Shown: positions 28,161 through 60,071 of the stretch, piece after piece
Position numbering within the stretch: position 1 is the stretch's first letter
Layout of the letters: each line of letters begins with the position of its first letter
Source of the DNA: Methylobacillus flagellatus
GTDB lineage: Bacteria > Pseudomonadota > Gammaproteobacteria > Burkholderiales > Methylophilaceae
Direction of reading: 5' to 3'
DNA: 64,000 nt
NCBI RefSeq assembly: GCF_005502435.1
Contig: NZ_SCOU01000003.1
Location: forward strand, 124,001-188,000
Position numbers and translations under genes: made by a program
The notes under the pieces: model-generated
Seen by the model: only the letters and a program-made list of their open reading frames with translations
The model's database searches: none
Told to the model about the DNA's origin: nothing

Positions 28161-29905
28161 CCAACCATTCCTTTCAATTCCAGCAGCTCTCGCACGATGC
28201 CACTCTGCACCTTGGCCAGCTCGGTCTCGTCCACTTCACCCACCTCGGCCTGAATCAGCCGATCCAGAATCACACCCGGCGCGTCGTAGCGCACTTCCTC
28301 GAACACATCGGTTTTGTAACGGGACAGTGAAAGGTCAAAGTTGTTCTTTTCATCCGCAATCTCGGTTCGGGGCACCATGAAGCACTTGGCCGTGCGGTCG
28401 GTGTCTGTGGCCGGGTTGCGGGCGTGGTATTTGGCAACGATGTCTTGCAGGTCACCGTTGCCATCCTGTTTGCTACGTTTGTCGTCCAGCGAATAGCCGT
28501 CGGCGGCCATCTCAAAAAACCAGACGTACTCGGTGGCGGGCTGGATGATCTTGTCTTTCGGCCCCCAGACCTTGGTGAACAACAGAATGGCAGTGCTGAC
28601 CCCTGCATAGGGTTTGAACACACCACTGGGCAGGGTGATGATGGCTTTGAGGTCGCAGCGCTCCACCAGCAACTGGCGCAGCGCTTTGAACGCGCCGCCA
28701 GAACCAAATAGCACGCCCTGCGGCACGATCACGCAAGCGGTGCCGCCTTTCTTCAGCAGGCGATAGATGTTCTCGACAAACAGCAGCTCGGTCTTGGTGG
28801 TGCCCAGTTGCAGGTTTTCGTTGATGTCGCCCTTGTCGATGCTGCCGGTAAAGGGCGGGTTGGCCATCACAATGTCGTATTCGGATTCCTCGGTGTAGCT
28901 TTTGCTGAGGGTGTCCTTGTAGTCGATGTGCGGTTCGTCGATGCCGTGCATCATCAGGTTCATCAGCCCCAGGCGCACCATGGTGGCGTCAATGTCGTAG
29001 CCGTACAGGGAGTCTTGAAGGATGTTCTGCGCTTTTTCTGTCAATGCGGCAGCGACTGAGGTGCGCACAAAACCATCTTCATCGGGTGTGAGGTCTTTGG
29101 TGCCTACCTTGATAGCGAGTTGCGTAACAATGTATTGGTAAACGCCAAGCAGGAAGCCGCCGGAACCGCAGGCTGGGTCAGCAATTTTGTGGCCTAGTTG
29201 CGGCTGTACCAGATCTGCCATCAGCTTGATGATGTGGCGCGGGGTGCGAAACTGGCCGTTCTTGCCCGCAGTGGCGATCTCGGACAGCAGCATTTCATAC
29301 ACATCGCCCTGAATGTCCTGAAATGCCTGGCCGTTTTCGCGTGAGTCGCGCTCCATCACCTCGAAGATGTCGTCTATGGTCTTCACCGCTTCTACCAGCA
29401 GCGCTGGCTTGGGGATGATGAAGACCGCGTTCTTCATGTGGTGGGTGAAGTTGGATTCTGATCCGTTCAGGTCCTTCAGGAACGGGAATACCCTGCCCTG
29501 CACATGCTGCAGCATTTCTTCGGCCTGCATGCGCTTGAATTCGCTCCAGCGCAGCGTGCGCTTGTCGATGGCAAACTTTTTTTCGTCTTCCAGTTTTCTT
29601 TGCCAATCTGCATCGCTATCGCTATCGCTATCGCTATCGCTATCGCTATCGCTATCGCTATCGCTAGCGTCGCGGCGTGCACGATACTCAAGTGGAATCC
29701 AGCTGCCTTCGAATTTGGAGGTGTAATTCTCCTCGGTCCATTCGGCATCGGCCTGCCGTTTCTGGTCCAGTTCGTCCAGCCGCTTCATGAACAGCAGGTA
29801 AGTGATCTGCTCAATGGCAGTGAGCGGGTTGCTGATGCCGCCGCTCCAGAATTTGTTCCAGAGCTGGTTGATTTTGCTTCTAAGTTCGGGGTTGTTTTGC
29901 AGCAT
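28157..29905 (-). CDS. hsdM: Type I restriction-modification DNA methyltransferase subunit
   Basis: Adenine-N6 methyltransferase of the type I complex. An HsdM N-terminal helical domain starts MLQNNPELRSKINQLWNKFW. The catalytic domain has the SAM motif ADPACGSGGFLLGVY and the catalytic NPPF in DIVMANPPFTGS. Between them, the acidic linker near residue 80 is formed by nine perfect Ser-Asp repeats encoded by a hexanucleotide microsatellite. The 582-residue length is otherwise normal. It is upstream of hsdS and downstream of dinD. Confidence 0.94.
   Translation of the reverse strand: MLQNNPELRSKINQLWNKFWSGGISNPLTAIEQITYLLFMKRLDELDQKRQADAEWTEENYTSKFEGSWIPLEYRARRDASDSDSDSDSDSDSDSDSDADWQRKLEDEKKFAIDKRTLRWSEFKRMQAEEMLQHVQGRVFPFLKDLNGSESNFTHHMKNAVFIIPKPALLVEAVKTIDDIFEVMERDSRENGQAFQDIQGDVYEMLLSEIATAGKNGQFRTPRHIIKLMADLVQPQLGHKIADPACGSGGFLLGVYQYIVTQLAIKVGTKDLTPDEDGFVRTSVAAALTEKAQNILQDSLYGYDIDATMVRLGLMNLMMHGIDEPHIDYKDTLSKSYTEESEYDIVMANPPFTGSIDKGDINENLQLGTTKTELLFVENIYRLLKKGGTACVIVPQGVLFGSGGAFKALRQLLVERCDLKAIITLPSGVFKPYAGVSTAILLFTKVWGPKDKIIQPATEYVWFFEMAADGYSLDDKRSKQDGNGDLQDIVAKYHARNPATDTDRTAKCFMVPRTEIADEKNNFDLSLSRYKTDVFEEVRYDAPGVILDRLIQAEVGEVDETELAKVQSGIVRELLELKGMVG
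29612..29665. repeat. Hexanucleotide microsatellite (ATCGCT)9 inside hsdM
   Basis: Nine uninterrupted copies of ATCGCT (54 bases) encode (Ser-Asp)9 on the minus strand, flanked by imperfect copies. Because the unit is six bases, copy changes keep the frame and lengthen or shorten the linker by two residues each. Confidence 0.97.
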
Positions 29906-29932: not shown

Positions 29933-30790
29933 TTAGTTTTTTGGAGCCGGGAGTTTGCCGGCGCGTTTTACAAGCTTCTTTTCCTCGGCTTTAACGCGCC
30001 GTTCCAGTTTTTTGATGTCTTCTTCAGGTGGTAATGCTTCTGGCTTGATGCCGCGCTGATCAAGCATGGCGCGCACGCTTTGGTTGTTCTGCACGTGTTC
30101 GCGGGTGATGGCCTGTTCGCCCTGCAAGTTGTCCTGGCTTACATTGTGGTTGGTCATTTCCGTGGCCAGGTTTTTTGCTGCGATGGTCAGGGTGGGTAGA
30201 AAGTCAGCTAGTGGACGGGTTTGGGTAATGCCAAAACGATCTTTCATGGCCTGCGTGGTGTGGCCTCCAAACAGTGCCGCATCGCCTCTGGAACGGATAC
30301 GGCCAAATCCTGTGTCGTCAACGCCGCGTTCATAGAGGTTTTGTGACAGGTTTTTTTCTGATTCTCTCAGGCGCTCGCGGGCGTCCAGCCTTGCTTGCAG
30401 TCGCATGCGATCTTCGATCAGCTCCTGTTTGCGCGTCTGGGTGGCGAAGTAGCTCTGGGCAAAGGCAATCGGCTCCTTACGCGGATCACCGTTCTGGGCG
30501 ATGAGGTAGCAGGCATAGCGGGTTAGCATGAAATCGTCGATAGGCCGCTGCCCGCCCTTGCCGATTTCGATCATTTTCGTGACGCCACGAAAATGATCCT
30601 CTGCCGAATAGCCGGTTGTTTCGCATGACTCGATGGCTCGCCGGATGGCGGTCTGGAAGTTTTCCCAGCGGGCGTAACCAAGTGGCTCCATCAGGTCACG
30701 GGCAAACCAGAATTCAACCCCATCTTCAGGGATAGTTTGACTCAAGGCATCGAAATGGCTTTTCATCAGTTGGATGGTGTTTGATTCCAT
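29933..30790 (-). CDS. dinD: DNA-damage-inducible protein D homologue
   Basis: 285 residues. The N-terminal Bro/KilA-like fold contains FWFARDLMEPLGYARWENFQTAI, followed by the conserved FRGVTKMIEIGKGGQRPIDDFMLTRYACYLIAQNGDPRK stretch of DinD. The C-terminal half is charged and helical and ends with Lys-rich KKLVKRAGKLPAPKN. In E. coli the gene is SOS-induced and the protein inhibits RecA filament activity. Here it lies between hsdR and hsdM on the same strand, a position seen in other type I loci, so it is probably carried by the island rather than a chromosomal SOS gene. No clear LexA box was found in front of it. Confidence 0.88.
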   Translation of the reverse strand: MESNTIQLMKSHFDALSQTIPEDGVEFWFARDLMEPLGYARWENFQTAIRRAIESCETTGYSAEDHFRGVTKMIEIGKGGQRPIDDFMLTRYACYLIAQNGDPRKEPIAFAQSYFATQTRKQELIEDRMRLQARLDARERLRESEKNLSQNLYERGVDDTGFGRIRSRGDAALFGGHTTQAMKDRFGITQTRPLADFLPTLTIAAKNLATEMTNHNVSQDNLQGEQAITREHVQNNQSVRAMLDQRGIKPEALPPEEDIKKLERRVKAEEKKLVKRAGKLPAPKN

Positions 30791-46155: not shown

Positions 46156-47682
46156 ATGGCCACCCTGCAACTCAACTCCAGGCTCAAATCGTGGTTTAGT
46201 CAGATCGATATCGAGACCAAGGTGTCGATGATATTGATTGCGCCTACCCTGCTCTCGTTTGCCGTGCTGGTCGGCGCATTGTTGCTCAAGCAATCCCTGA
46301 ATCAGAGCACACAATGGGTGTCGCACACCGAAGAGGTGATGCTGCAGATCGCAGATTCGAAATTCCATTTCAATAACTTGTCTTTGTATCACCTGCGCTA
46401 CCAGCTCAGCGCCGAACAAGGATACCTAAAGCTGTATGACCGGGCTTATCTTGGTCTGAACCAGTCCATGGTCAAACTGACTACCCTCATGTCGGACAGC
46501 CAGCAGCAGCAAGGCGAGCTGGAAAAGCTGCTGCAACTGATTGGTGACCGTACTAGCAGTCATCGCAAGCTCATCAGTCTGCGTGGCACGCTTACCCCGG
46601 ACGAAGTCATCAAGGCAGCACAGGCCAAGACGCTGATCTTTGATGATGCCGAGATCCTTGGGCTGTTCGATAGCATGCTGGCGACCGAAGCTGCCTTGCT
46701 AAAAAGTCGTCGTGCTTCCGAACATGATTATTACCTGAAGCTTGAAGCGGCGCTGATCGTGTTGTTCATCATCATCGCCAGCAGTCTGCTGTTCGCAGAC
46801 CGCTTCCTGCGGCGCGATATGCGCCTGAAAGCCGATCTGCATGCCTCGCTGTCGGAGTCACACCACAAACTGCAGCAGGAGCTTGCCGAAGCACGCAATA
46901 CCCTGGTTGCCTTGCTGCCAGTTCCAGCGACATTGTGCAATGTCCAGTTCGAATGGTTCTTCGAGGCCTCCAACCATGTAGGCGGCGATATCATGGATTA
47001 TTTCCAGGTGGACGAGCATCACGTGATGTTCTATGCCGTGGATGTTTCCGGCCACGGGGTGACAGCGGCCATGCATGCATTCACCGTGCATAACGACATG
47101 CTGGCCTCTACTGCCCATATCGCCGAATTGCTGGCCCATTTTGGTGATTTGTCCGAGACGGCTACCTCCTTCCTCACCCTGTATAACAGCCGTTACATGC
47201 GCAAGACCGATACTGGCGAGTATTTCACCATGCTGCTCGGTATCATCGACACGCGCACTGGTGAGCTGGCGCTGGTGCAGGCAGGACATCCGTGCCCTTT
47301 GCTGATGTCAGCAGGTGGCCGTGACATACAATGCCTGGGCGAAGGTGGTTTCCCGATCGGGCTGGTGGAAGACGCCAGCTACGAAGCGGTCCAACTGACC
47401 TTGAAGCGTGGTGACCGCTTGTGCGTTTACTCGGATGGCGTGACCGATTGCGAGAATGCCAAGCATTCGGTGTTCGGACAACAAAAGCTGAAATCCTTGT
47501 TCCGTATCATGCACCACCAAGCGCTGGACCAATGCAAGCAGGCGATCTATGAGCAGGTGAAAAACTGGCGGGGTCTGGGCCAACCATTCAATGACGATGT
47601 GAGTTGCCTGATCCTGGAATTCAACGGGGATAGTGCACCCATTCAAAAATTAGAAAGAGACGATATCTATGTTCCTCGATGA
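46156..47682 (+). CDS. Membrane-anchored PP2C-type (SpoIIE/RsbU) serine phosphatase
   Basis: First gene of the 46-60 kb operon. Two membrane segments (about 25-46 and 196-217) enclose a roughly 150-residue, mostly helical sensor region, likely periplasmic. A short coiled stretch leads to the PP2C/SpoIIE domain (about 245-490) with metal-binding Asp residues in SNHVGGDIMDYF, AVDVSGHGVTAAM and YSDGVTDCEN and the late FNDDVSCL. It is predicted to dephosphorylate the STAS protein encoded next. The reading frames overlap by 14 bases. The 171-base gap upstream holds the operon promoter, which I could not assign. Confidence 0.9.
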   Translation: MATLQLNSRLKSWFSQIDIETKVSMILIAPTLLSFAVLVGALLLKQSLNQSTQWVSHTEEVMLQIADSKFHFNNLSLYHLRYQLSAEQGYLKLYDRAYLGLNQSMVKLTTLMSDSQQQQGELEKLLQLIGDRTSSHRKLISLRGTLTPDEVIKAAQAKTLIFDDAEILGLFDSMLATEAALLKSRRASEHDYYLKLEAALIVLFIIIASSLLFADRFLRRDMRLKADLHASLSESHHKLQQELAEARNTLVALLPVPATLCNVQFEWFFEASNHVGGDIMDYFQVDEHHVMFYAVDVSGHGVTAAMHAFTVHNDMLASTAHIAELLAHFGDLSETATSFLTLYNSRYMRKTDTGEYFTMLLGIIDTRTGELALVQAGHPCPLLMSAGGRDIQCLGEGGFPIGLVEDASYEAVQLTLKRGDRLCVYSDGVTDCENAKHSVFGQQKLKSLFRIMHHQALDQCKQAIYEQVKNWRGLGQPFNDDVSCLILEFNGDSAPIQKLERDDIYVPR

Positions 47683-48007
47683 AAAAACGGTCGACGGGGT
47701 GAGCTGTATCAGCTTCAATCAGGAGCGCTTCGATGCGGCCAAGGTGGTGCAGTTCAAGCAGTTCTTCGTGGATGCGGTCGCGGCAGGCAAGACACGGCTA
47801 GTGCTGGACCTGGCGGCTGTCAAGTTCATGGACAGCAGTGCGCTGGGTGCGGTGGTGGCGGTACTCAAGACAGTAGGCGCACGTGGTGATCTGGTGCTAT
47901 GCGGCGCGACCGGCATCGTGGCCGAGTTGTTCAAACTGACCCGCATGGACCGGGTGTTCGTGATCGTTGCCAGCGAAGCTGATGCTGTCGCCAAGTTGAA
48001 CAGCTGA
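47669..48007 (+). CDS. STAS-domain anti-sigma-factor antagonist
   Basis: 112 residues forming one STAS domain of the SpoIIAA/RsbV type. LVLDLAAVKFMDSSALGAVV carries the phosphorylatable Ser (S56, first Ser after the Asp) of the DSS motif. It is expected to be phosphorylated by the HATPase kinase encoded 1.2 kb downstream and dephosphorylated by the preceding phosphatase. Its 14-base overlap with the phosphatase gene gives fixed stoichiometry. No sigma factor is encoded nearby, so its output partner may not be a sigma factor. Confidence 0.9.
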   Translation: MFLDEKTVDGVSCISFNQERFDAAKVVQFKQFFVDAVAAGKTRLVLDLAAVKFMDSSALGAVVAVLKTVGARGDLVLCGATGIVAELFKLTRMDRVFVIVASEADAVAKLNS

Positions 48008-48019
48008 TCGGGAGCGGCC

Positions 48020-49192
48020 ATGAAAGCCATGATACTGGGGGCGGGCAAGGGAACACGGGTGCGGCCCATCACCCATGACATTCCCAAGCCGATGATCCCA
48101 TTGGTGCGCAAGCCGGTGATGGAATACATCGTGGCTTTGCTCAAGCAGCATGGCGTGACCCAGATCATGGTCAATACCAGTCACCTTGCACCGGTCATCG
48201 AAGATTACTTCCGTGACGGAGAGCAGTTCGGTGTGCAGATGGCGTATTCCTACGAGGGCTCCTTCGTGGATGGGGTGGCCACCGGTTGCCCGCTGGGTTC
48301 AGCAGGCGGCATGAAGAAGATCCAGGATTTCTCTGGCTTTTTCGATGAGACCTTCGTGGTGGTGTGTGGGGATGCCTGGATCGATCTGGACCTCACCGAA
48401 GCCCTGCGCATCCACCGTGAGAAAAAGGCCATCGTCAGTATCATCATTCGCGAAGTGCCGCCCGAAGAAGTGTTCAAGTATGGCGTGGTGAAGCTGGATG
48501 ACGATGGACGCATCCTGCAATTCCAGGAAAAACCCGCACCCGAGCAGGCCGTGTCCAACATGGCCAACACCGGGATCTACATCTTTGAGCCCGACGTGCT
48601 GGATTACATCCCGTCTGCGACGGAGTACGACATCGGCGGTCAGCTGTTCCCGGCCCTGGCCAGCGCTGGCAAAGCCTTCTATGGCATCGTGCTGCCGTTC
48701 CAGTGGCTGGACATCGGCAATGTGCAGGATGTGTGGACCGTGACGCGCAGCATCCTCGAAGGCGAGGTGCATGGCTTCAGGATGCCAGGTAGCGAGATCC
48801 GGCCTGGCGTCCATACCGGCATCAATGTCAGTGTGGATTTCGATCAGGTGGAGATCACACCGCCCGTGTATATCGGTGGCAGCACACAGATCCAGCCCGG
48901 CGTTAAGCTGGTCGGACCGCTGGTGATCGGTGCCAACTGTGTGGTGGAGTCTGGCGCTCTGCTCAAGGATTGCATCGTCGAGGACTACACGCGGGTCAGC
49001 GGTCTTGCTCATCTCGAAGGCAAGATCGTGTTCGGTAATAAATGCATCGACCCCATGGATGACACCGTGATCGATATACAGGCCGCCGACATCGGGTTCG
49101 TGCTGGACGATGTCAGAAACGCGGTGAAGCCGCACGACACGGCGCAGGAAATCGCTGCACTGATGCGTGCAGACCCTCCTAATCACAAGTAA
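48020..49192 (+). CDS. Sugar-phosphate nucleotidyltransferase with left-handed beta-helix (GMPP-like)
   Basis: Activates a sugar 1-phosphate with NTP. The N-terminal Rossmann-like domain starts MKAMILGAGKGTRVRPIT-x5-KPMIP, the signature loop and Lys of the family; VVCGDAWIDLDL is the metal-binding GD, and QFQEKP and WLDIGNV are substrate residues. After residue 250 hexapeptide repeats form a beta-helix (GPLVIGANCVVESGALLKDCIVED). Length and layout resemble mannose-1-phosphate guanylyltransferases, but the sugar is not certain. Its position between the STAS and kinase genes links precursor supply to the regulatory switch. Confidence 0.88.
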   Translation: MKAMILGAGKGTRVRPITHDIPKPMIPLVRKPVMEYIVALLKQHGVTQIMVNTSHLAPVIEDYFRDGEQFGVQMAYSYEGSFVDGVATGCPLGSAGGMKKIQDFSGFFDETFVVVCGDAWIDLDLTEALRIHREKKAIVSIIIREVPPEEVFKYGVVKLDDDGRILQFQEKPAPEQAVSNMANTGIYIFEPDVLDYIPSATEYDIGGQLFPALASAGKAFYGIVLPFQWLDIGNVQDVWTVTRSILEGEVHGFRMPGSEIRPGVHTGINVSVDFDQVEITPPVYIGGSTQIQPGVKLVGPLVIGANCVVESGALLKDCIVEDYTRVSGLAHLEGKIVFGNKCIDPMDDTVIDIQAADIGFVLDDVRNAVKPHDTAQEIAALMRADPPNHK

Positions 49193-49207
49193 CCAGGCGA
49201 CTTCATT

Positions 49208-49648
49208 ATGGACAGTCACAGAATCTCGATCAAAAGCAGCTACGATGACGTTCATCTGGTCGCGCCCTGGTTGCATCAACTGGCAGAGCAAGCCGGCATG
49301 TCCGAGGCGGCGACCATGCAGCTTGAGCTGGCGGTCGTCGAAGCCGTCAATAACGTAGTCGAACATGCGTATCAGCTGCAGGACGGGCATACCGTGCAAG
49401 TGCTGGGACGTTTTGATGCGCAGCGCCTGGTCATTGAAATCTGGGATACGGGCATGACCATGAATACGGAAAAGCTCGAAAAGATCAAGGCGGAACAGGA
49501 TGATGACGATGCCATCACCCTGATGCTGCTGGAAGAGAGCGGCCGAGGCCTGCGTCTGATGACCCAGCTGGTGGATGATGTCGATTACCTCAGTGACGGC
49601 ACGATGAACCGACTGGTGCTGGTGAAGTTGTTGAATGGCACGGAGTAA
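49208..49648 (+). CDS. RsbW-type serine kinase / anti-sigma-like HATPase
   Basis: 146 residues of GHKL ATPase fold. N box ELAVVEAVNNVVEHAY (E45, N48, N49), G1 box WDTGM (79-83) and lid SGRGLRLM (111-118) are intact. There is no receiver or His-phosphotransfer domain, so it is the small Ser/Thr kinase type that phosphorylates STAS partners and sequesters a target. An acidic insert (KAEQDDDDAI) lies between G1 and the lid. Its end overlaps the GH2 gene by 14 bases, tying the switch to the polysaccharide genes. Confidence 0.9.
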   Translation: MDSHRISIKSSYDDVHLVAPWLHQLAEQAGMSEAATMQLELAVVEAVNNVVEHAYQLQDGHTVQVLGRFDAQRLVIEIWDTGMTMNTEKLEKIKAEQDDDDAITLMLLEESGRGLRLMTQLVDDVDYLSDGTMNRLVLVKLLNGTE

Positions 49649-51884
49649 ACATCGCGCTTCTTGCTTAGGCTGGCTCGCATTCCTTGCCCTGACGCTGCTC
49701 AGCCCGGCGCTCGCTGCCAGTGACGGCCTGTCACAGCGGCTGGACCTGGGGGGCCGTTGGCAGTTCCAGCCTGTGCCCATCACGGCAGCCGCCAAGCCTG
49801 CCCCCGGACCATCCTGGACGGCCATCCAGGTGCCGGACAACTGGTACCGACAGGGTTACGACATCAGCGGTCGTGCCTGGTACCGCAAGACCTTTCAGTT
49901 GGATACCCTACAGCATGCCAGTGCGCACCTTGTGTTCGCTGCCGTGGATTACCGTGCCGATGTCTGGCTGAACGGCCAGCATCTCGGCCAGCATGAAGGC
50001 TACTTCCAGCCATTTGAATTCGAGGTGCGCCGTCATCTGCGCACCGGCCAGAACGAGTTGCTGGTACTGGTGGACAGCCCGCTGGAGCAGCCTGCCGACT
50101 GGTCCCTCAACAAGCGCCTGATCAAAGGGGTGCTGTCGCATCACGATACCCGTCCCGGCGGTGCCTGGTCCGAGCGTGGGCAGGAGCAGAACACCGGCGG
50201 TATCTGGGGGCCGGTCCATCTGGAGCTGGATGGCGAGGTTTCCCTGCGAGGCATCACGCCGCTCGCCACGCGCCAGGACTGGGGCTGGCAGTTGCACACT
50301 GCGCTGCAGCTCAACGTGGCTGGGCGTGCTGCACGTGATGTCGAGATCGAGATCGTCATCGATCCGGTCGGCTTCGAAGCCAGGCGCTACCGTTACACCA
50401 CGCAGCGCCGTATACAAGCTGGTGAGCAGACCCTGCCCGTGCGGGTGGCGGTGCAGCAGCCCGCCTTGTGGTGGCCAGCCGGGCACGGTGATCCCCGCCT
50501 CTACCGAGTGCAAGTGCGTTTGCATGCGCAAGGGCGGCTCATCGCGCAGCGCGCCACTGAAGTTGGTTTCCGGGAAGTGAAGGTCGATCCAAAGACCTTG
50601 CAGTGGCAGATCAATGGCCGCCGCCTGTTCATCCGCGGCACCAATTACATTTCCACCCAGTGGCTGGCCGAAATGACACCTGCCGCTTACCAGCGCGACT
50701 TGCAGCTGATGCAGCAGGCGCATATCAACGCTGTCCGGGTGCACGCCCATATCGAAGCGCCGGCGTTCTACGCGGCTTGTGACCGGCTGGGCATGCTGGT
50801 GATGCAGGATTTTCCCTTGCAATGGGGATACCGTGATGAAGCTGGATTCGTGCGGGAAGCCCGCCGCCAGGCCGCCGACATGGTGCACCATTTCCACAGA
50901 CACCCATCCATCGTGTCCTGGACTATGCACAACGAGCCGCCCTGGGATGCGCCATGGATGCGTGACAAATACCCCAACTATCGCGCCGATCAGAACCGGG
51001 TGCTGGATCAGTTGCTGTTTGAGGATGTGAGCCGTCTGGACCCCACGCGCGTGGTGCGTCGTGAATCCGCTACCGATGAGCATGTCTGGCTGGGCTGGTA
51101 TTTTGGGCGCTGGCAGGATTATGCCGGCAAGCCCTTGCTACCCTGGGTGACCGAATACGGCGCCCAGGCGCTGCCCGATCTGGCCGCGCTGAAGCGCATG
51201 TTCAGCGATGATGAGTTATGGCCGACCACCGAGCAGCACTGGCAGAAATGGAGCTTCCATAATTTCCAGCCGCACGAGACTTTCAACATCGCCAAGGTGG
51301 AGAAAGGCAACAACATCGAGCAGTTCATACGCAACAGCCAGCAGCATCAGGCCAGGGTGATCCAGTACGCCACCGAATCCTATCGACGTCAGCGCTATGC
51401 GCCGGTCAGTGCCTTGTTCCAGTTCATGTTCAATGAAGACTGGCCCTCTATCAACTGGGGAGTGGTGGACTATTGGCGTACTCCCAAACTGGGCTATCAG
51501 GCGCTGAAAAAAGCCTACCAGCCGGTGTTGCCCAGCATCGCCTGGAGCAGTGACCGTTATGTCACGGGCGAAGCCGTGAAGCTTGGGCTGTGGCTCATCA
51601 ATGACAGCTGGCAAGGCTATCCTCAGGTCGACTACCATGCGACGCTCTGGCGTGACGGAAAGCGACATCATGAACAACGCTGGGCGTTGGCCATGCCAGC
51701 TGACAGTGGCACGGCGGTGGCTGATTTGCAGTTCGCCAGCTTGCCCGCTGGTGCATATCAACTGCGTGTGACGGTCAGCAACGCAGGTCGCCTGCTGGGC
51801 GACAACAGCCTGGATTTCGCGGTGCAAGCGCCGGTCCGGGCTGCCTCGTCAAGCCCGTCCGCCGGGAACAAGGGCGCGCCATGA
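49635..51884 (+). CDS. Exported glycoside hydrolase family 2 enzyme
   Basis: A 749-residue exported enzyme with a signal peptide (about 1-28, CLGWLAFLALTLLSPALAA). Order: sugar-binding jelly roll (WFRK-like WYRKTFQL, VDYRADVWLNGQHLGQHEGYF), an Ig-like domain, and the TIM barrel with GTNYISTQW. The acid/base is E434 in HNEPPWDAPW and the nucleophile E507 in WVTEYGAQ. GH2 covers beta-galactosidase, beta-mannosidase, beta-glucuronidase and others; specificity cannot be read from motifs. A C-terminal Ig-like domain follows. Overlap with both neighbours indicates a role in processing the polymer made by this operon. Confidence 0.88.
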   Translation: MARSKHRASCLGWLAFLALTLLSPALAASDGLSQRLDLGGRWQFQPVPITAAAKPAPGPSWTAIQVPDNWYRQGYDISGRAWYRKTFQLDTLQHASAHLVFAAVDYRADVWLNGQHLGQHEGYFQPFEFEVRRHLRTGQNELLVLVDSPLEQPADWSLNKRLIKGVLSHHDTRPGGAWSERGQEQNTGGIWGPVHLELDGEVSLRGITPLATRQDWGWQLHTALQLNVAGRAARDVEIEIVIDPVGFEARRYRYTTQRRIQAGEQTLPVRVAVQQPALWWPAGHGDPRLYRVQVRLHAQGRLIAQRATEVGFREVKVDPKTLQWQINGRRLFIRGTNYISTQWLAEMTPAAYQRDLQLMQQAHINAVRVHAHIEAPAFYAACDRLGMLVMQDFPLQWGYRDEAGFVREARRQAADMVHHFHRHPSIVSWTMHNEPPWDAPWMRDKYPNYRADQNRVLDQLLFEDVSRLDPTRVVRRESATDEHVWLGWYFGRWQDYAGKPLLPWVTEYGAQALPDLAALKRMFSDDELWPTTEQHWQKWSFHNFQPHETFNIAKVEKGNNIEQFIRNSQQHQARVIQYATESYRRQRYAPVSALFQFMFNEDWPSINWGVVDYWRTPKLGYQALKKAYQPVLPSIAWSSDRYVTGEAVKLGLWLINDSWQGYPQVDYHATLWRDGKRHHEQRWALAMPADSGTAVADLQFASLPAGAYQLRVTVSNAGRLLGDNSLDFAVQAPVRAASSSPSAGNKGAP

Positions 51885-53680
51885 GAAGGTGGATGCTGGG
51901 CCCGCTCATGCTCGCCATCTCGGGCTTGTCTGCCGCAGCACCAGCGCTGGCGCAGACTACCCCCACGTCAGTGCCGAGGGCTGCGATCGCAGTCAACCAA
52001 TTGGGCTACACGCCGCACGGCCATAAACGTGCGCTCTTGCTCAACAGCCCGCAACCCAGCTTGCCAGTACTAGTGCTGGATGCACACAGCCAGATCGAAC
52101 TGGCACGACTGACGCCGGGCGTGGTGCGCAAAGCCGGGCATGGCATTGCGGTGCAACAGGTGGAGTTCAGTGCACTCAATACCTCCGGCGAGTATCTGCT
52201 GGTGCAGGGAGCGCTGCGTTCCAGCCGCTTCCGCATCGAAGCCTCGCCTTATGCAGCGTTGATGAAATCGGCCTTACGCAGTTATTACTTGCAGCGTTGC
52301 AACACGGCCATCCATGATCCGGTCTCCGGCTTGCGGCATCCGGTATGCCATCCGCTGGACGGCCGCATCGCGCGCGACGACGGCATCAATCGCCAAGGCC
52401 AAGCCTGGTCAGCCAACGGTGGCTGGCATGATGCAGGTGATTACGGGAAGTACATCGCCACCGCCGCCGTCACGGTGAGTCGCTTGCTCAGCCTGTATGA
52501 AGCCGCGCCAGACCGGTTCGACGTCTTGCGCCTGGATATCCCGGAATCTGCCAACGCAGTACCTGACCTGCTTGATGAAGCCAGGTTCGAGCTGGAGTGG
52601 ATGCTGAACATGCAGCGTCAGGACGGCGCGGTGTATCGCAAGCTGTCAGGAGCGCAATGGCCCAAGGAAGTCATGCCGCACCAGGATGATCAAGTGCGAC
52701 TGGTGTATGGGGTCTCCAGCCCGGATACGGGCAAGTTCGCCGCCACGCTGGCACAGGCGGCGCGTGTCTACGCTGGGTTCGATCCGGTCTTTTCGGCACG
52801 CTGCCTGCAAGCCGCCACCCGTGCCTGGACATGGCTGCAAGGTAGCAAGGGCGTAGGCGGCGCAAAGGATATCCCCGCCGTCAAAGACCAGACCATAGAC
52901 TACCATCCTGCCGATGATGGTGGCTCCGGTAGCTACCTAGCCTCCGGCATAGACCGCGAGCCCAGCCTGGCTACCGACCGGGATGACAGGCTGGCTGCTG
53001 CCAGCGAGCTTTACCTTATTACCGCTGGCCCCGAGTACTTGGGCTATCTGCAGCGCAATATCCCGCGTGCCGACTATACCTTGTTCGAGTGGAAGGACAT
53101 GTCTTCCCTGGGCTTATGGCATCTGTTGCAGCGCAGCAGCGGAGAGCCGCTAAAAGCCGCGCGAGCACATATCCGCAAGAAGTTGCTGGCCCGTGCCGAA
53201 CGGGCCTTGCGTACCGTCGATGGCAACGCTTATGGCCTGGCCGACACACAGTTCGTGTGGGGGTCCAACAAGCTGATCGCCGAGGAAGGCATCAATCTGG
53301 TGTACGCCTACTGGCTTACCGAGGACACAAAATATTTACGTGCAGCCACACATCAGCTAGATTACCTGCTGGGCGTCAATCCGTTCGCCATGGCCTATGT
53401 GACCGGTTTCGGACAGCGCTCGGTACAGCACCCGAATCACATCCCCATGCGTAACAGCGATGCTAGACTCGCTGGCCTCATGGTGGGTGGCCCTTCTGTG
53501 CATGGCGAAGACGGCATCACCCCCAAGAACCTTGGCGCGTTGAGTTACATCGACCATGCTCAGGCTTACGCGTCCAATGAATATGCGATTGATTACAATG
53601 CCGCCTTGATCGGCCTGATCGAAGCGCTGAGCAGACAACCCCAGCCAGCGGCTGATGGACAACCAAGCAAGGAACCATAG
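51881..53680 (+). CDS. Exported glycoside hydrolase family 9 (endoglucanase type)
   Basis: 599 residues with a signal peptide (about 1-24). An N-terminal Ig-like domain (VNQLGYTPHGHKRALL, about 33-120) precedes the (alpha/alpha)6 GH9 domain. Catalytic residues are intact: base Asp in GGWHDAGDYGKY (180-191) and acid Glu E567 in ASNEYAIDYNA. QFVWGSNKL and GVNPFAMAYVTGFG are further GH9 segments. GH9 enzymes typically cut beta-1,4-glucans, so the polymer of this locus may have a cellulose-like backbone (inference). The ATG overlaps the GH2 stop. Confidence 0.9.
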   Translation: MRRWMLGPLMLAISGLSAAAPALAQTTPTSVPRAAIAVNQLGYTPHGHKRALLLNSPQPSLPVLVLDAHSQIELARLTPGVVRKAGHGIAVQQVEFSALNTSGEYLLVQGALRSSRFRIEASPYAALMKSALRSYYLQRCNTAIHDPVSGLRHPVCHPLDGRIARDDGINRQGQAWSANGGWHDAGDYGKYIATAAVTVSRLLSLYEAAPDRFDVLRLDIPESANAVPDLLDEARFELEWMLNMQRQDGAVYRKLSGAQWPKEVMPHQDDQVRLVYGVSSPDTGKFAATLAQAARVYAGFDPVFSARCLQAATRAWTWLQGSKGVGGAKDIPAVKDQTIDYHPADDGGSGSYLASGIDREPSLATDRDDRLAAASELYLITAGPEYLGYLQRNIPRADYTLFEWKDMSSLGLWHLLQRSSGEPLKAARAHIRKKLLARAERALRTVDGNAYGLADTQFVWGSNKLIAEEGINLVYAYWLTEDTKYLRAATHQLDYLLGVNPFAMAYVTGFGQRSVQHPNHIPMRNSDARLAGLMVGGPSVHGEDGITPKNLGALSYIDHAQAYASNEYAIDYNAALIGLIEALSRQPQPAADGQPSKEP

Positions 53681-53682
53681 CG

Positions 53683-55521
53683 ATGGCGTTTTATTTTGAC
53701 CAGTTCGAACAGCGGCGCCCGGAGCCACCCTTGCCCTACTCTCCGGTGCTGGAGGCTTTGTGGCAGTTCCTGTTCGTCATCGCGCTGGTGCTCGGTGCCT
53801 GGTATGTGCATTGGCGCTGGATCGCCTCGCTTAACTACGATGCGCTGTGGTATGCCATCCCGTTGGTGATCGCCGAGACCGGCGCTTACATCGGCCTGAT
53901 ATTGTTCGCGTTCAATCTTTGGAAGGTCAAGGATTACCCTAGACGCCCGCCACCACAGTTCATCAGCGAATGCACGCGTGATGAAGCGGCAGAGCAGCGC
54001 CCGCTCAAGGTGGATGTGTTCTTTCCGTCCTACGATGAAGATCCGGAACTGGTGCGCCTGAGTGTGCGTGATGCCAAGCGCGTGACTTACCCGCATCCCA
54101 TCGAACTCAACATCTATGTACTCGACGATGGCCGACGCCCCAGCATGAAGCAGATGGCGGACGAGGAGGGTGTAGGCTACTTCACGCGCAGCAACAACAT
54201 CGGCTTCAAGGCCGGTAACATGCGTAACGCCATGGAGCAGACCTCCGGTGATTTCATCGTCATCTGCGATGCTGATACGCGGCCTTTCCCGACCATACTC
54301 GAACACACGCTGGGTTATTTCCGTGACCCAGACGTAGCCTGGGTGCAAACACCGCAATGGTTCTTCGACCTGCCGGAAGGCAAGCCCCTGCCTGCGGCGC
54401 TGCAGCGTAGACTGGGCCGGCCCGGCTACTGGCTGGGACGTGGTGTGGAGCGGCTGATCGGCCCGATCCGCCTCGGTGAAGACCCGTTCGTCAATGACCC
54501 CAAGATGTTCTATGACCTGATCCAGCGCCGCCGCAACTGGGCCAATGCATCGTTCTGTTGCGGTGCCGGGTCCATCCACCGCCGCGATGCGGTGATGGAA
54601 GCGGCCCTCAAGGGCTTTGCTGACGAGGTCGAGCGCAAGTCACAGCGGCAACTCAAGCAGATGCAGCGTCTGACCGGCGAGAAATCGGCTGATACCAGCA
54701 CGGCAGGCCTGTTGCGGCAGGGCATGGCGCAGGAAGAAGAGCTGACGCCTTACCGCTTTCACGTCTCCGAGGACATCTACACCTCCATCGTGCTGCATTC
54801 CGACCCGCACCGTAAATGGAAGTCAGTGATGCATCCGGAAGTGGAGTCCAAGATGCTGTCACCCCAAGACTTGCTGTCGTGGACCATCCAGCGCTTCAAG
54901 TACGCCGGTGGTACCCTGGACATCGCTGTGCACGACAATCCGGTGATGCGTCCTGGCCTTAGCCTGCCGCAGCGGCTGATGTACCTGACCACGGTATGGT
55001 CTTATCTGGGCGGGGTGTGGAACCTGATCTTCCTGATCGCCCCCTTGGTCTACCTGTTTACCGCGATCGCGCCCGTGAGTGCCTACTCCATCGACTTTTA
55101 CAAACATATCCTGCCTTTCCTGGTGGCCACGGAAATCGCGTTCATGGCGGCGTATTGGGGGATCTCCAGTTATAAGGCCAAGACCAATTATCTGTCTTTC
55201 TTTCCGATCAACCTGCGCGCTATCTGGACGGTGATGCGTGGTCAGAAGATCAAGTTCCCGACCACGCCCAAAGACCGTCAGGAGGGTAATTTCTTCCATC
55301 TGGTGATGCCGCAGTTCGTGATGATCATGCTGACCCTGCTGGGTTTATTGTATGCCTGGCTTCAGTATCTGCTGTTCGCAGCCGATTACACCTTGAATGG
55401 CCTGATCGTGAACACGTTCTGGGGCATGAACAATGTGGTGGCCTTGAGCGGTATCGTGCTGGCGGCATTCTGGCAGCCTGAGCCTGCAGCGGCGAGCACG
55501 GCCGAACTCGCGGCGACCTGA
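53683..55521 (+). CDS. Cellulose-synthase-like family 2 glycosyltransferase
   Basis: 612-residue processive beta-glycosyltransferase of the inner membrane. Two N-terminal membrane helices (about 22-44, 54-79), a cytoplasmic GT domain, then four to six more helices (about 430-595). Catalytic motifs: DDG (148-150), DAD (196-198), TPQWF (223-227), FCCGAG (291-296) and the base in SEDIYT (362-367). The usual QxxRW motif reads QRFKY (403-407). There is no PilZ domain, so direct c-di-GMP control as in BcsA is not expected. It starts two bases after the GH9 stop and is the likely polymerase of this locus. Confidence 0.9.
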   Translation: MAFYFDQFEQRRPEPPLPYSPVLEALWQFLFVIALVLGAWYVHWRWIASLNYDALWYAIPLVIAETGAYIGLILFAFNLWKVKDYPRRPPPQFISECTRDEAAEQRPLKVDVFFPSYDEDPELVRLSVRDAKRVTYPHPIELNIYVLDDGRRPSMKQMADEEGVGYFTRSNNIGFKAGNMRNAMEQTSGDFIVICDADTRPFPTILEHTLGYFRDPDVAWVQTPQWFFDLPEGKPLPAALQRRLGRPGYWLGRGVERLIGPIRLGEDPFVNDPKMFYDLIQRRRNWANASFCCGAGSIHRRDAVMEAALKGFADEVERKSQRQLKQMQRLTGEKSADTSTAGLLRQGMAQEEELTPYRFHVSEDIYTSIVLHSDPHRKWKSVMHPEVESKMLSPQDLLSWTIQRFKYAGGTLDIAVHDNPVMRPGLSLPQRLMYLTTVWSYLGGVWNLIFLIAPLVYLFTAIAPVSAYSIDFYKHILPFLVATEIAFMAAYWGISSYKAKTNYLSFFPINLRAIWTVMRGQKIKFPTTPKDRQEGNFFHLVMPQFVMIMLTLLGLLYAWLQYLLFAADYTLNGLIVNTFWGMNNVVALSGIVLAAFWQPEPAAASTAELAAT

Positions 55522-55579
55522 GGCAAGCCTAGGTTCCCTATGAATATCAACGATCCCGTATGACGAAAGCGCGACTACC

Positions 55580-56926
55580 ATGAGCTTCAAACAGAACCTG
55601 ATCCGAGCCCGTAGCCACTTCGTGTTCCTTATCGGGCTGGCCGTCGCCTTCAGCCTGGTGATCTGGCTGGAACAATGGCAACCCGCCTTCAGTGCCCAGG
55701 CACATAACCCGGTGCCGCAGAAGCTGCAGCCGGTTACGCTGCTAGCTCCTACGGCGGTGCTGACCGAGCAAGAGCGTGCCTGGGCCGCCATCGCCTGGCG
55801 CTATTTCGAGAACAACTACCAGCCGGAGACTGGGCTGGTGAATTCGGCGGATGCCTTCCCTGCCTCCACGTTGTGGGATACCGCTTCTTATCTGCTGGCA
55901 CTGATCTCGGCCGAACGGTTGGCCTTGATCGACCGTGCCACCTTCGATGCCCGTGTGGCCAAGCTGTTGCAGAGCTTGGCGGGCTTGCAGCTGTTTGACG
56001 GGAAGCTGCCCAATAAATCCTATAACACCCAGACCTTGCAGATGGTGGACTACAACAACCAGCCCAGTGCGCGTGGCATAGGCTGGTCAGCCATCGACAT
56101 CGGCCGTATCCTGGTGCCGCTGAACCTGCTGGTGTGGAATTACCCGCAGCATACGGCGCTGGTGCAGCAATTGCTGGTGCGCTGGTCCTTCCCGGCCCTG
56201 ATCGAGCAAGGCGAGATGTTCGGCGCCACCTTGACCAATAGCGGCGAGACGCAGCTGGTGCAGGAAGGCCGTCTGGGTTACGAGCAATATGCCGCCAAGT
56301 CCATCGGCCTGCTGGGTCAGGATGTTTCCACAGCCATGAACTACGGTGCGCATCTGAGCTATGTGAACATCTACGGTATCCCGGTGCCGACCGACAGCCG
56401 TGATCCCGCCAAGTACATCGCACATAACTATGTGGTCAGCGAGCCTTATATCCTGGACGGGCTGGAGTACGGCGGTGATCAGATCTCGCGTGAGTTCGCC
56501 TACCGGGTCTATGCCGTGCAGGAAAAGCGCTATCAGGCCACCGGCAAACTCACCGCGGTCAGCGAAGACAACATCGATGAGGCGCCGTATTTCGTCTATA
56601 ACACCGTCTATACCGGCGGCAAAGCCTGGCAGACCATCACCGACAGTGGTCAGGATGCTTCCAGGTTCCGCAGCCTGAGCACCAAGGCGGCGTTCGGTTG
56701 GCACGCGTTGTACGGTACGCCGTACACGCAGCAACTAGTAGAGGCGGTGGCTAGCCTGTATGACCCGGACAAGGGGTGGTACTCCGGGGTGTATGAAGCG
56801 AGTGGCAAGCCCAACAAAGCCATCACCGCCAACACCAATGCCATCGTGCTGGAAAGCTTGTGCTACCGGCAGTTCGGCCCGCTGATGCGACAAGCGCAAA
56901 CAACGATTATAGAAAAGGCGCAATAA
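55580..56926 (+). CDS. Membrane-anchored DUF3131 protein (module copy 1)
   Basis: 448 residues with one N-terminal membrane helix (about 13-30, FVFLIGLAVAFSLVIWL) and the rest predicted periplasmic. The DUF3131 domain includes AWRYFENNYQPETGLVNSAD, STLWDTASY, YNTQTLQMVDYNN, RLGYEQYAAK and TANTNAIVLESL. The repeated helix pairs suggest an (alpha/alpha)6-type barrel like glycoside hydrolases, but activity is unproven. It is clearly paralogous to the next gene and its function probably involves the nascent polysaccharide. Confidence 0.8.
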   Translation: MSFKQNLIRARSHFVFLIGLAVAFSLVIWLEQWQPAFSAQAHNPVPQKLQPVTLLAPTAVLTEQERAWAAIAWRYFENNYQPETGLVNSADAFPASTLWDTASYLLALISAERLALIDRATFDARVAKLLQSLAGLQLFDGKLPNKSYNTQTLQMVDYNNQPSARGIGWSAIDIGRILVPLNLLVWNYPQHTALVQQLLVRWSFPALIEQGEMFGATLTNSGETQLVQEGRLGYEQYAAKSIGLLGQDVSTAMNYGAHLSYVNIYGIPVPTDSRDPAKYIAHNYVVSEPYILDGLEYGGDQISREFAYRVYAVQEKRYQATGKLTAVSEDNIDEAPYFVYNTVYTGGKAWQTITDSGQDASRFRSLSTKAAFGWHALYGTPYTQQLVEAVASLYDPDKGWYSGVYEASGKPNKAITANTNAIVLESLCYRQFGPLMRQAQTTIIEKAQ

Positions 56927-56928
56927 CC

Positions 56929-58425
56929 ATGAACACTGCAACCGCTCCACTGATGAAGCTGCACCTGCTGTTTAGCGCCGCCCTGCTGACCCTGAGCCTC
57001 GGCCTGCCGGGCCTGGCCATGGCCGCCCCCGACCTGCCCAAGAACGCTTGCGAGATCAATGCCAACGCCATGTCCAGTACCACGCTGACCGAAGATGAGA
57101 TGCCGTTTGTCGGCTACCCCGAGCGCTGTTGCCTGAAACGCAAGAACATCCTTTCCGAGCAGGAGCTCGACATGGCGCGCATCGCCTGGAAATATTTTGA
57201 GAAGAATTACCAGGCCAAGACCGGGCTGGTCAATTCGGCCAATCAGTATCCCTCCACCACCATGTGGGACACGGGCTCGTCGATTGCTGCCACGCTGACT
57301 GCACGCGAGCTGGAATTCATCAGCCAGAAGGAGTTCGACGACCGCATCACTGCGCTGCTGGCCACCTTGAACACCATGCGTCTGTTCAATGAAGAAGCGC
57401 CCAACAAAGCCTACAACACGCTGGACGGCGAGATGTCGGACTACAACAACAAGCCCACCCAGGATGGTATCGGGGTGTCCACGCTAGACCTGGCGCGCTT
57501 GTCGCAATGGTTGAACGTGTTGTCCTGCATGCACCCCAAACACCGTTTGATCGCACGCCAAGTGATGACGCGCTGGAAATATTGCCGCCTGATCAAGAAT
57601 GGCGAGATGTATGGCCTGTCGCGAGAAGGCAAACAGATCCAGGTGCTGCAGGAAGGCCGTCTTGGCTACGAACAATATGCAGGCAAGATCTTCTCGCGCC
57701 TGGGCTTCGATACCGGCATCTCCAAAACTTACCGCAACAAGCACGCCACCGCCACGGACATCTATGGGGTGACCATCCCTTATGACAAGCGCGACCCCAA
57801 GGACCTGGGCGCTTACAACTATGTGGTGACCGAGTCCTTCTATATGGACGCCATGGAGAATGGCCTGGATCCCGAGCTGTCACCGCTGGTGGATAACATC
57901 TACAAAGTGCAGCAGAAGCGCTGGGAGCAGACTGGTCAGGTGACGGCGGTATCCGAAGACAATGTGGACCGTGACCCCTGGTTCGTCTACAACACCATCT
58001 TCGTTGCAGGCAAGCCATGGTCGGCCATCACGGACACCGGCCGGGACATGAGCCAGCTACGCTCGGTATCCACCAAGGCGGCCATCAGCATGGCCCTGTT
58101 CAAGCCACGCGAGTTCTATTCCAAGGTGCTCATCGACCATGTGCGCAGCGCTTACGATCCGGACTACGGCTGGTATTCCGGTGTCTATGAGACCGGGCTG
58201 GGTTATAACAAGGCGCTCACTGCCAACACCAACGGTGTGATTCTGGAGACCATGCTATACCGTGCCTATGGCCCGCTGGCAGAGGGCTGCCGTCAATGCC
58301 AGCGTCATCTGCAATTCGACCGACTGGTGCTGGAAGACAAGCGCTATGCCGATCATTGCCTGCCGACCGGCCAGGCCAACGCGTGTGTGAATCCTGACTT
58401 ATGCGCCGCCGCTCCGAGAAAGTAG
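56929..58425 (+). CDS. Exported DUF3131 protein (module copy 2)
   Basis: 498 residues from ATG 56929, with a signal peptide (about 1-32, LLFSAALLTLSLGLPGLAMA). It aligns with the preceding protein through most of its length: AWKYFEKNYQAKTGLVNSAN, TMWDTGSSI, YNTLDGEMSDYNN, RLGYEQYAGK and LTANTNGVILETMLYR. Extra Cys pairs near residues 67-68 and at the C-terminus (GCRQC, HCLPTGQANACVN) suggest periplasmic disulfides absent from copy 1. It begins two bases after copy 1 ends and overlaps the outer-membrane gene by 25 bases. Confidence 0.82.
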   Translation: MNTATAPLMKLHLLFSAALLTLSLGLPGLAMAAPDLPKNACEINANAMSSTTLTEDEMPFVGYPERCCLKRKNILSEQELDMARIAWKYFEKNYQAKTGLVNSANQYPSTTMWDTGSSIAATLTARELEFISQKEFDDRITALLATLNTMRLFNEEAPNKAYNTLDGEMSDYNNKPTQDGIGVSTLDLARLSQWLNVLSCMHPKHRLIARQVMTRWKYCRLIKNGEMYGLSREGKQIQVLQEGRLGYEQYAGKIFSRLGFDTGISKTYRNKHATATDIYGVTIPYDKRDPKDLGAYNYVVTESFYMDAMENGLDPELSPLVDNIYKVQQKRWEQTGQVTAVSEDNVDRDPWFVYNTIFVAGKPWSAITDTGRDMSQLRSVSTKAAISMALFKPREFYSKVLIDHVRSAYDPDYGWYSGVYETGLGYNKALTANTNGVILETMLYRAYGPLAEGCRQCQRHLQFDRLVLEDKRYADHCLPTGQANACVNPDLCAAAPRK

Positions 58426-60071
58426 TGTATCTGCCCCCCGCCAGCTGGTTGGCGGGCTTACTGGTATGCGCCTTGAGCGCGCTGGCCCAGGCCGAGGAGA
58501 CGCCGCCTGTGTTCATCCAGGCTGCTCAGGCCCTGCACTGCGCCAGTACGCAAGAGCAGGCGGCCGCTGCGCTGCAGGAGATGGAACGCCACACCACGGC
58601 CGACATGGAGCTGCCCTACGATGTGTTCCACGACCGCAACAACAATGCGCTGTATCTGGCTTCGCTGGATATCGTATTGCGCAGCCTGGACGAAGCTGCC
58701 GCACGTTTCCCGCAGCTGACCCCGGAGATCAACCGGCTGTTCGCTGGCTGGAACTACTGCGGCGTGTTGCAGGACGGCGCTATGTTCGATATCGAAACCC
58801 GCTATGGCCGCTTGGAGAAACGTACCCCAGCCACCACCTTCCCGGCCGGGCAACTAGGCTTGGCACAGTGGGGCTTCCCTGCGCCGGTGGCCCCGGAGAG
58901 GGCTTCCGCGACAGCGATCGCCAGCCCTGAACAGCTGCGGCGTCAATGTATCCCGGTGCGTAGCCAGGATGGTGACCTGGTCAATCCGCATCTGCTGCCT
59001 TTGTCGGGCAGCTTGCGTCAGGCCACAGCTTCTGCCCCCGGAAAGACCACCGCCTATCCTTATCAATGGCGGCCAGCCTGCGAAGTCGATCTCGGATCTT
59101 CAGATGGCTATAGTCAAGGGTATCTAAGTGGGCTCGAAGCCGGTCTGGGGCGTCGCGATGCGGCGCTGGAAGCGAATGTTGCCGGGCGCGAGAACCTGAT
59201 CTCCCCTGAGCAGCGCCTCGCCATAAAACAGCGCTTCTGGTCTCCTGCCAGTTACGAAGCTGGCTTGGCTGAGGGTCGCCAGGCTGGCTATCGCGATGGG
59301 CTGACGGCAGCCTACCAGGCCGAACCTGCTACGGTGGTCAGCAAGCGCAGCCCGCAGGAGCTGCAGCAACTGGCTATCGTGCCGGACATGCAAAGTGGAC
59401 CTCCTGCCAGCCTGGCAGGCGCTATCCCCAGTGCGGGTTCCAGCCCTTCCATCGCCTCGGTTCCCATCGATAGCGAGAACAAGAAGTTCTCCGGTAATTA
59501 CTACACCGCCTACCGGTCGGGCAGTAACATCCCGTCTTACGGTGGCGTGGCGTTGTGGGCGCCCAAGCCGAACTGGTTCGTGCGGTTGGGTGCGGATGTG
59601 CAATACCGCAACGACAGCGGTGACAAATTCAACTACTCCTGGGGGTTTGGTTATTACGACTGGCGTCCAGGCACCTGGTCTTTGCAAGTCAATAATTGGG
59701 GGCCTATCCAGACCGGCCAGGCGCTGGCAGAAGAGCGCGCGGTGGCTTCACTCAGCTATAACTTCCGATCTGAACTGCTGGAGCAGAAACGCATCTCCAG
59801 TTTTGCTGCGCTGATCTCACCTTTCTCGCAGGATGCGCCGTCCATGCGGCTGGGTATGCAATGGACACCGGTGGCGCCCTGGTATGTATACACGGCGATC
59901 GATATCCCGGTGAACGGCGATAACGCTACTTGGAGCTATGCTTTCGGCAGACGTGACTGGCGGCCTTTTACGTTCTCGATCCAATACAACAACTACGAGA
60001 AGAACCGGCTGGACCAACTGAACTTCAAGGAAAATGGCACTTGGCTGATCGGCGGTAACTGGGCGTTCTGA
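58401..60071 (+). CDS. Outer-membrane beta-barrel protein with N-terminal DUF3131-like module (copy 3)
   Basis: 556 residues, signal peptide about 1-31. Residues about 83-160 align with the middle of the two DUF3131 proteins (LASLDIVLRSL ... WNYCGVLQDGAMFD against LDLARLSQWL ... WKYCRLIKNGEMYG). A Gly/Ala-rich helical stretch (about 230-320) has spaced GYxxG repeats. From about 365 the chain is an amphipathic barrel ending IGGNWAF, with terminal Phe. Two barrel segments are duplicates (YYDWRPGTWSLQVNNW and RRDWRPFTFSIQYNNY). It is the last gene of the operon and the best candidate for polymer export or anchoring. Confidence 0.75.
   Translation: MRRRSEKVVYLPPASWLAGLLVCALSALAQAEETPPVFIQAAQALHCASTQEQAAAALQEMERHTTADMELPYDVFHDRNNNALYLASLDIVLRSLDEAAARFPQLTPEINRLFAGWNYCGVLQDGAMFDIETRYGRLEKRTPATTFPAGQLGLAQWGFPAPVAPERASATAIASPEQLRRQCIPVRSQDGDLVNPHLLPLSGSLRQATASAPGKTTAYPYQWRPACEVDLGSSDGYSQGYLSGLEAGLGRRDAALEANVAGRENLISPEQRLAIKQRFWSPASYEAGLAEGRQAGYRDGLTAAYQAEPATVVSKRSPQELQQLAIVPDMQSGPPASLAGAIPSAGSSPSIASVPIDSENKKFSGNYYTAYRSGSNIPSYGGVALWAPKPNWFVRLGADVQYRNDSGDKFNYSWGFGYYDWRPGTWSLQVNNWGPIQTGQALAEERAVASLSYNFRSELLEQKRISSFAALISPFSQDAPSMRLGMQWTPVAPWYVYTAIDIPVNGDNATWSYAFGRRDWRPFTFSIQYNNYEKNRLDQLNFKENGTWLIGGNWAF

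Follow-up and report, generated by a model that had tools for sequence, protein, structure and literature searches.

A recurrent ten-gene locus in Methylobacillus flagellatus combines a predicted partner switch with a BcsA-related glycosyltransferase and DUF3131 proteins

What does a bacterium make with a run of genes in which the parts of a regulatory partner switch are interleaved with those of a polysaccharide synthase, and is such a run more than the peculiarity of one strain? The question is raised by ten genes of Methylobacillus flagellatus at positions 46156-60071 of the window, the 64,000-nucleotide stretch of contig NZ_SCOU01000003.1 (positions 124,001 to 188,000) that was analysed. 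We conclude that this locus is a real, widespread and undescribed-looking variant of the synthase-dependent glycan systems, and put a probability of roughly 0.6 on it being a synthase-dependent pathway for a beta-linked glucan, the output of which is set by the partner switch. An earlier description made from the letters alone (the sequence-only reading) had listed ten genes, and all ten open reading frames were found on the + strand at the positions it gave, with the domains it named. Pfam assigned CHASE3 plus SpoIIE/PP2C, STAS, NTP_transferase plus hexapeptide, HATPase_c_2, glycoside hydrolase families GH2 and GH9, glycosyltransferase family GT2, DUF3131 and again DUF3131 to the first nine products, while the tenth had no match in Pfam or NCBIfam and was characterised by its predicted structure:

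46156..47682, +: PP2C-type (SpoIIE) serine phosphatase with an N-terminal membrane CHASE3 sensor domain (SpoIIE E=2.6e-38, CHASE3 E=5.6e-9)
47669..48007, +: single-domain STAS antagonist with a phosphorylatable Ser (FMDSSAL) (STAS E=5.7e-15)
48020..49192, +: sugar-1-phosphate nucleotidyltransferase (NTP) with a left-handed-helix C-terminus (NTP_transferase E=4.9e-55)
49208..49648, +: RsbW-like HATPase serine kinase (HATPase_c_2 E=5e-24)
49635..51884, +: GH2 glycosidase with signal peptide and catalytic NEP and TEYG (Pfam)
51881..53680, +: GH9 endo-beta-1,4-glucanase-like enzyme with signal peptide (GH9 E=3.7e-77)
53683..55521, +: membrane GT2, BcsA-related, without PilZ, motifs QRFKY and FPTTPK (TIGR03030 E=6e-63, below cut-off)
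55580..56926, +: DUF3131 protein A, N-terminal membrane helix and predicted (alpha/alpha)6-type domain (DUF3131 E=2.3e-151)
56929..58425, +: DUF3131 protein B, predicted signal peptide and DUF3131 domain (DUF3131 E=3e-130)
58401..60071, +: secreted protein with a predicted C-terminal 12-strand outer-membrane barrel, residues ~362-555 (AlphaFold model)

The spacings from gene 1 to gene 10 are -14, +12, +15, -14, -4, +2, +58, +2 and -25 bases, which is the layout expected of one transcription unit; promoter and terminator scans of the locus gave results near chance level. For the second DUF3131 gene the open reading frame tool had chosen a GTG at 56860, but judged from signal peptide and spacing the start is most likely the ATG at 56929, with a 2-base gap to the upstream gene. 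The GC content of the locus (0.589) is close to that of its surroundings (0.578), in a genome of 2.38 Mb.

A DUF3131 profile search of the genome collection gave at least 572 relatives, the best 80 of which were fetched, and all 55 loci available as sequences of at least 20 kb were scanned with family profiles. The loci had been ranked by their similarity to DUF3131 protein A, and therefore an even sample of 397 Pseudomonadota genomes was used in addition. PP2C, STAS, HATPase, GT2 and DUF3131 were all present in 55/55 of the ranked loci, accompanied by NTP in 38, GH2 in 24, GH9 in 16 and a barrel gene in 48; the first five are the core of the locus, and GH2 and GH9 are optional. The recurrent order is PP2C, STAS, (NTP), HATPase, (GH2, GH9), GT2 and one to four DUF3131 genes, and it recurs in Pseudomonadota, Desulfobacterota and Kapaibacteria, among others in Vibrio, Photobacterium, Shewanella, Ferrimonas, Thiothrix, Leucothrix and Noviherbaspirillum, with variant arrangements in Sphaerotilus, Desulfoluna and Kapaibacteria, while a Nostoc plasmid carries GT2 and DUF3131 together with STAS and PP2C. 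Because it recurs across phyla the order is far beyond chance, and this genome search and the accompanying gene-order chart show that it does not belong to a single strain. GT2 lies immediately upstream of DUF3131 in 93/94 loci, mostly overlapping or nearly so. Full-length DUF3131 was found in 14/397 genomes of the even sample, the window's own not counted among the 14, and a GT2 gene adjoins one in 14/14; the switch genes were seen beside this pair in most of these genomes but not all, as three alphaproteobacterial-looking loci yielded a fused STAS alone and one genome yielded none. DUF3131 was not found in 14 well-known control genomes. Within the genus the same ten genes are present in the one other genome compared. 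Among 60 relatives full-length DUF3131 was confined to this genus, so that even inside its family the locus has a patchy distribution.

Plasmid-borne versions were seen in Pantoea, Salmonella, Paracoccus and Nostoc. Those on large plasmids include Salmonella Rubislaw pCFSAN006171_1 (locus L137), typed as conjugative, and Pantoea stewartii pDSJ10 (L136); a search of E. coli genomes for a closely similar copy of the version on the Salmonella plasmid found none. The host range also bears on the idea that filamentous bacteria build their sheath with this locus, as the matches include Thiothrix, Leucothrix, Cocleimonas, Crenothrix, Sphaerotilus and Electrothrix. It is, however, equally present in the unsheathed Vibrio, Photobacterium, Shewanella, Paracoccus and Pantoea, and we consider a sheath function very improbable.

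The regulatory genes of the window encode together an RsbU/RsbV/RsbW-type set of PP2C phosphatase, phospho-Ser STAS protein and HATPase kinase, and the residues expected of such a set are kept: the PP2C motifs GGD, DVSGHG, DGVTD and DD are present and conserved in relatives, the STAS DSS is kept in 78/79 relatives, and the N-box E and N of the HATPase are invariant in 73/73. STAS, NTP and HATPase genes are consecutive, with NTP exactly in the middle, in 39 of the 42 loci that have all three. The proposals that partner-switch genes are woven through the glycan genes and that the nucleotidyltransferase lies between antagonist and kinase were therefore borne out, the former by Pfam domains, conserved residues and linkage across phyla. 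Furthermore, in three loci STAS is fused to the N-terminus of NTP (L047:15160-16617, L048:16483-17979 and L049:14183-15946), with the STAS score above cut-off in two and just below it in the third. These fusions suggest that STAS and NTP form a functional pair and that the switch may act, among other things, on the supply of precursor; the fused form itself has possibly escaped the switch. Hypothetically, free STAS would stimulate the NTP.

The phosphatase, STAS and kinase might instead control a sigma factor or diguanylate cyclase elsewhere in the cell and merely travel with the glycan genes. RsbW, for one, acts on sigma-B. Known partner switches such as HsbR/HsbA of Pseudomonas aeruginosa work in this way (PMC6482189), and within the operon STAS is the one known target of the kinase. 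No sigma factor family match was found in the operon. On the other hand, the trio is interleaved with NTP and tied to the GT2-DUF3131 pair across phyla, a GGDEF-motif open reading frame occurred just once among all loci scanned, and the STAS-NTP fusions link the antagonist to a glycan enzyme. A remote target thus seems somewhat unlikely, and with the conserved interleaving and the fusions simple hitchhiking is unlikely as well. One partner switch that acts on a polysaccharide locus is SypA/SypE, in which the mode of action of SypA is unknown (PMC4517449). As in the Vibrio fischeri syp locus, a STAS protein with a regulated Ser is encoded inside a polysaccharide locus, but SypE is a single kinase-phosphatase whereas kinase and phosphatase are separate genes here, and the 18 genes of syp make up a locus of a different kind. 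Control of a polysaccharide locus by a partner switch thus has precedent, and the novelty lies in the combination.

Haem proteins were also observed next to the locus: H-NOX haem gas sensors in Thiothrix and relatives (L063:1354-1926 and nine other loci), and globins on the Pantoea and Salmonella plasmids (L136:11834-12268 and L137:11831-12265). These neighbours suggest an oxygen or nitric oxide input in some lineages.

The GT2 protein was compared with cellulose synthase. It matches the cellulose-synthase model TIGR03030 at E=6e-63 (213 bits, cut-off 699) and BcsA structures at E~1e-37. BcsA carries a QxxRW motif and an FxVTxK gating loop; the GT2 keeps DxD and SED, and among its 89 relatives a gating-loop-like FPxTPK is kept at the place of FxVTxK, while QRFKY replaces QxxRW in about 88/89. 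There is no PilZ domain at its C-terminus, nor was PilZ or BcsB (PF03170) found anywhere in the genome, which encodes one GGDEF protein, and no tetratricopeptide repeat (TPR) was matched among the ten proteins. These searches uphold the view that the locus is devoid of PilZ, BcsB and BcsC-type parts. By sequence the GT2 is BcsA-related but a separate subfamily, in which the gating loop would be governed by something other than cyclic di-GMP (c-di-GMP). A divergent bcs operon with plain cellulose as its product was rejected as the principal explanation, given the missing PilZ, BcsB and BcsC and the altered QxxRW, and we rate it as quite improbable: the BcsA match, the gating loop and the encoded endoglucanase speak for it, but DUF3131 is absent from the control genomes mentioned above. 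Overall, the locus shares with bcs operons (BcsA-BcsB-BcsC) a processive membrane GT2 with DxD, S/TED and FxxTxK-like gating loop and an endoglucanase gene, and differs from them in the DUF3131 proteins, the partner switch and a predicted barrel of 12 rather than 16 strands.

DUF3131, a domain so far without an assigned function, can now be placed. The AlphaFold model of protein A (pLDDT 91, pTM 0.87) is an (alpha/alpha)6 barrel, and its top Foldseek matches in the PDB are endo-beta-1,2-glucanases and the cyclisation domain of cyclic glucan synthase (CGS), at E 1.5e-10 to 1e-7; the first 18 ranks are taken up by members of the beta-1,2-glucanase clan, by cyclic glucan synthase and by putative glucoamylases that share the fold. 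Alignment profiles of DUF3131 matched the cyclisation domain 8wy1 (GH189) at E=1.4e-4 and 1.7e-5, and hhalign gave 95-96% probability to GH189 over the N-terminal third. Three glutamates, E229, E288 and E329, are invariant in DUF3131, and by eye their order and context resemble E1356, E1400 and E1442 of TiCGS, but as the profile alignment of this region is not significant the correspondence is only a lead; sampling of PF10091 as a bridge between DUF3131 and GH189 yielded few relatives and no decisive alignment. Placed by sequence and predicted fold beside beta-1,2-glucanase and cyclisation enzymes, DUF3131 is probably a glycoside hydrolase or transglycosylase. The clan (SGL, clan GH-S) comprises GH144, GH162, GH189 and GH192-194, and its tested families act on beta-1,2-glucan, except that Group 4 showed no substrate (PMC12102758, PMC10834661), so that a place in the clan would not by itself tell the substrate of DUF3131. 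DUF3131 would share with the clan its predicted fold, an alignable N-terminal third and conserved acidic residues, but identity in structural alignments is about 9-13%, and its proteins are separate entities beside GT2 whereas the cyclisation domain is part of a ~2850-residue synthase. Two proteins of 857-935 residues ending in DUF3131 (L053:6521-9091 and L054:6972-9776) were also seen, with no GT2 of this type found nearby; that of L054 has a weak polysaccharide-deacetylase match.

With regard to the polymer, NTP has as its best PDB sequence match 8x7s (E=2.4e-138, residues 1-367), named a UTP-glucose-1-phosphate uridylyltransferase, for which no citing paper was found in the literature searched, and it probably makes UDP-glucose. 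Both proposed trimming hydrolases are present: GH9 is nearest to endo-beta-1,4-glucanases (3x17, E=7.3e-103) and has catalytic residues invariant in 18/18 relatives, and GH2 has a catalytic Glu invariant in 35/35 but is nearest to beta-mannosidases; trimming is unproven. Related loci also contain genes for GH16 and OpgC (the latter in L134, L137 and L138), and together the affinities of NTP, GH9, GH2, GH16 and OpgC favour a beta-glucan. In 15 loci, mostly of Vibrio (L092:3-3407 and 14 others), the locus is adjoined by the gene of a long repeat protein, rich in glycine and aspartate and resembling RTX/calcium-binding proteins, which is perhaps a matrix protein.

Structure prediction supports the tenth protein as an outer-membrane barrel: AlphaFold folds its C-terminal ~195 residues into 12 strands, with a local pLDDT of 71-90 against 66.5 for the entire protein. 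The barrel matches the designed 12-strand barrel 9fdg (TM 0.71 of target) and, at 0.53, NanC; it is thus closer to small barrels of the NanC kind than to BcsC. That the glucan stays in the periplasm is disfavoured by the predicted outer-membrane barrel encoded in or near 48/55 loci and by GH9 and GH16, which fit longer chains. A periplasmic glucan would agree with the relationship of DUF3131 to the CGS cyclisation domain in profile and fold, with OpgC (glucan succinylation) in the three loci above and in a Klebsiella block (PMC12974863), with a DUF3131 gene cluster described as a salt-shock module in Shewanella piezotolerans (PMC8371737), and with the lack of a TPR/BcsC-type exporter in the window. 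The osmoregulated periplasmic glucan (OPG) system (OpgGH, OpgC) is similar in its PilZ-free GT2 glucan synthase logic and in the OpgC of some relatives, but no OpgG or OpgH family match was found among the ten proteins (Pfam, NCBIfam), and we hold a periplasmic product to be rather unlikely, but a serious alternative.

For the switch-controlled beta-glucan pathway the following scheme is proposed. NTP would supply an NDP-sugar, probably UDP-glucose, which the membrane GT2 would polymerise into a chain and move through the inner membrane. Cutting, transfer or cyclisation of this chain would fall to the DUF3131 proteins, membrane-anchored and periplasmic, its trimming or editing to GH9 and GH2, and the outer-membrane step to the terminal barrel protein. 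The CHASE3-PP2C phosphatase would sense an envelope signal and dephosphorylate STAS, the HATPase would phosphorylate it, and free STAS would permit polymer synthesis, possibly by binding NTP. The description as a self-contained beta-glycan system with a possible export pore stands as far as a self-contained, recurrent glycan locus is concerned, whereas we infer the polymer identity, enzyme activities, outer-membrane export route and switch target.

Several observations weigh against this scheme. The top NCBIfam match of NTP is a mannose-1-phosphate enzyme (below cut-off), and the beta-mannosidases nearest to GH2 among solved structures reach E=2.5e-43 (5n6u), so that a mannose-containing polymer is conceivable. 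As the GT2 is without QxxRW, the linkage and even the donor sugar could differ from those of cellulose. Beyond its N-terminal third, DUF3131 does not align significantly with GH189 in sequence. The model of the barrel is only moderately good, and a barrel of 12 strands leaves a narrow passage. Finally, the three STAS-NTP fusions have a degenerate phospho-Ser motif and no kinase or phosphatase gene was found near them, so they show association at most, not switching. A more far-reaching version would make DUF3131 a new family of glycoside hydrolases/transglycosylases, with the task of releasing, linking or cyclising what a new subfamily of processive glucan synthases produces. This product would be a beta-glucan made in several phyla, its synthesis gated post-translationally by a partner switch with STAS acting directly on the sugar-nucleotide enzyme. 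The version is put forward tentatively, as rather unlikely to hold in all its parts. To our knowledge, a sugar-nucleotide enzyme has not been described before as the direct target of a STAS switch.

No characterised counterpart of the locus, including any with the GT2-DUF3131-barrel set, was found in the literature searched, which left most subscription journals outside its reach, in agreement with the impression of novelty gained from the sequence, and the mentions of DUF3131 in it included none of function. The closest published match is linkage block 3b of Klebsiella pneumoniae, with a cellulose-synthase-like gene, three DUF3131 genes, OpgC, and an anti-sigma factor and antagonist (PMC12974863); it resembles the present locus in the synthase-like, DUF3131 and anti-sigma factor/antagonist genes, but adds OpgC and a hybrid sensor kinase, and its published description goes no further than a set of accessory genes in linkage with a population axis.

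Elsewhere in the window, a putative type I restriction-modification M subunit (28157-29905, - strand) contains a (Ser-Asp) repeat run, DASDSDSDSDSDSDSDSDAD, a simple repeat which may vary in length. An open reading frame that we take to be DinD-like (DNA-damage-inducible) separates the R gene from the M gene in this putative operon (29933-30790, - strand).

Taken together, a glycan locus without a known product spans several phyla, from accessory DNA of Klebsiella, Salmonella and Pantoea to Vibrio and the sheathed filamentous bacteria. DUF3131 gains a testable enzyme class, a second subfamily of cellulose-synthase-like enzymes is defined that is apparently without c-di-GMP control, and where a STAS switch in a polysaccharide locus still lacks a target, as that of SypA does, NTP becomes a concrete candidate.

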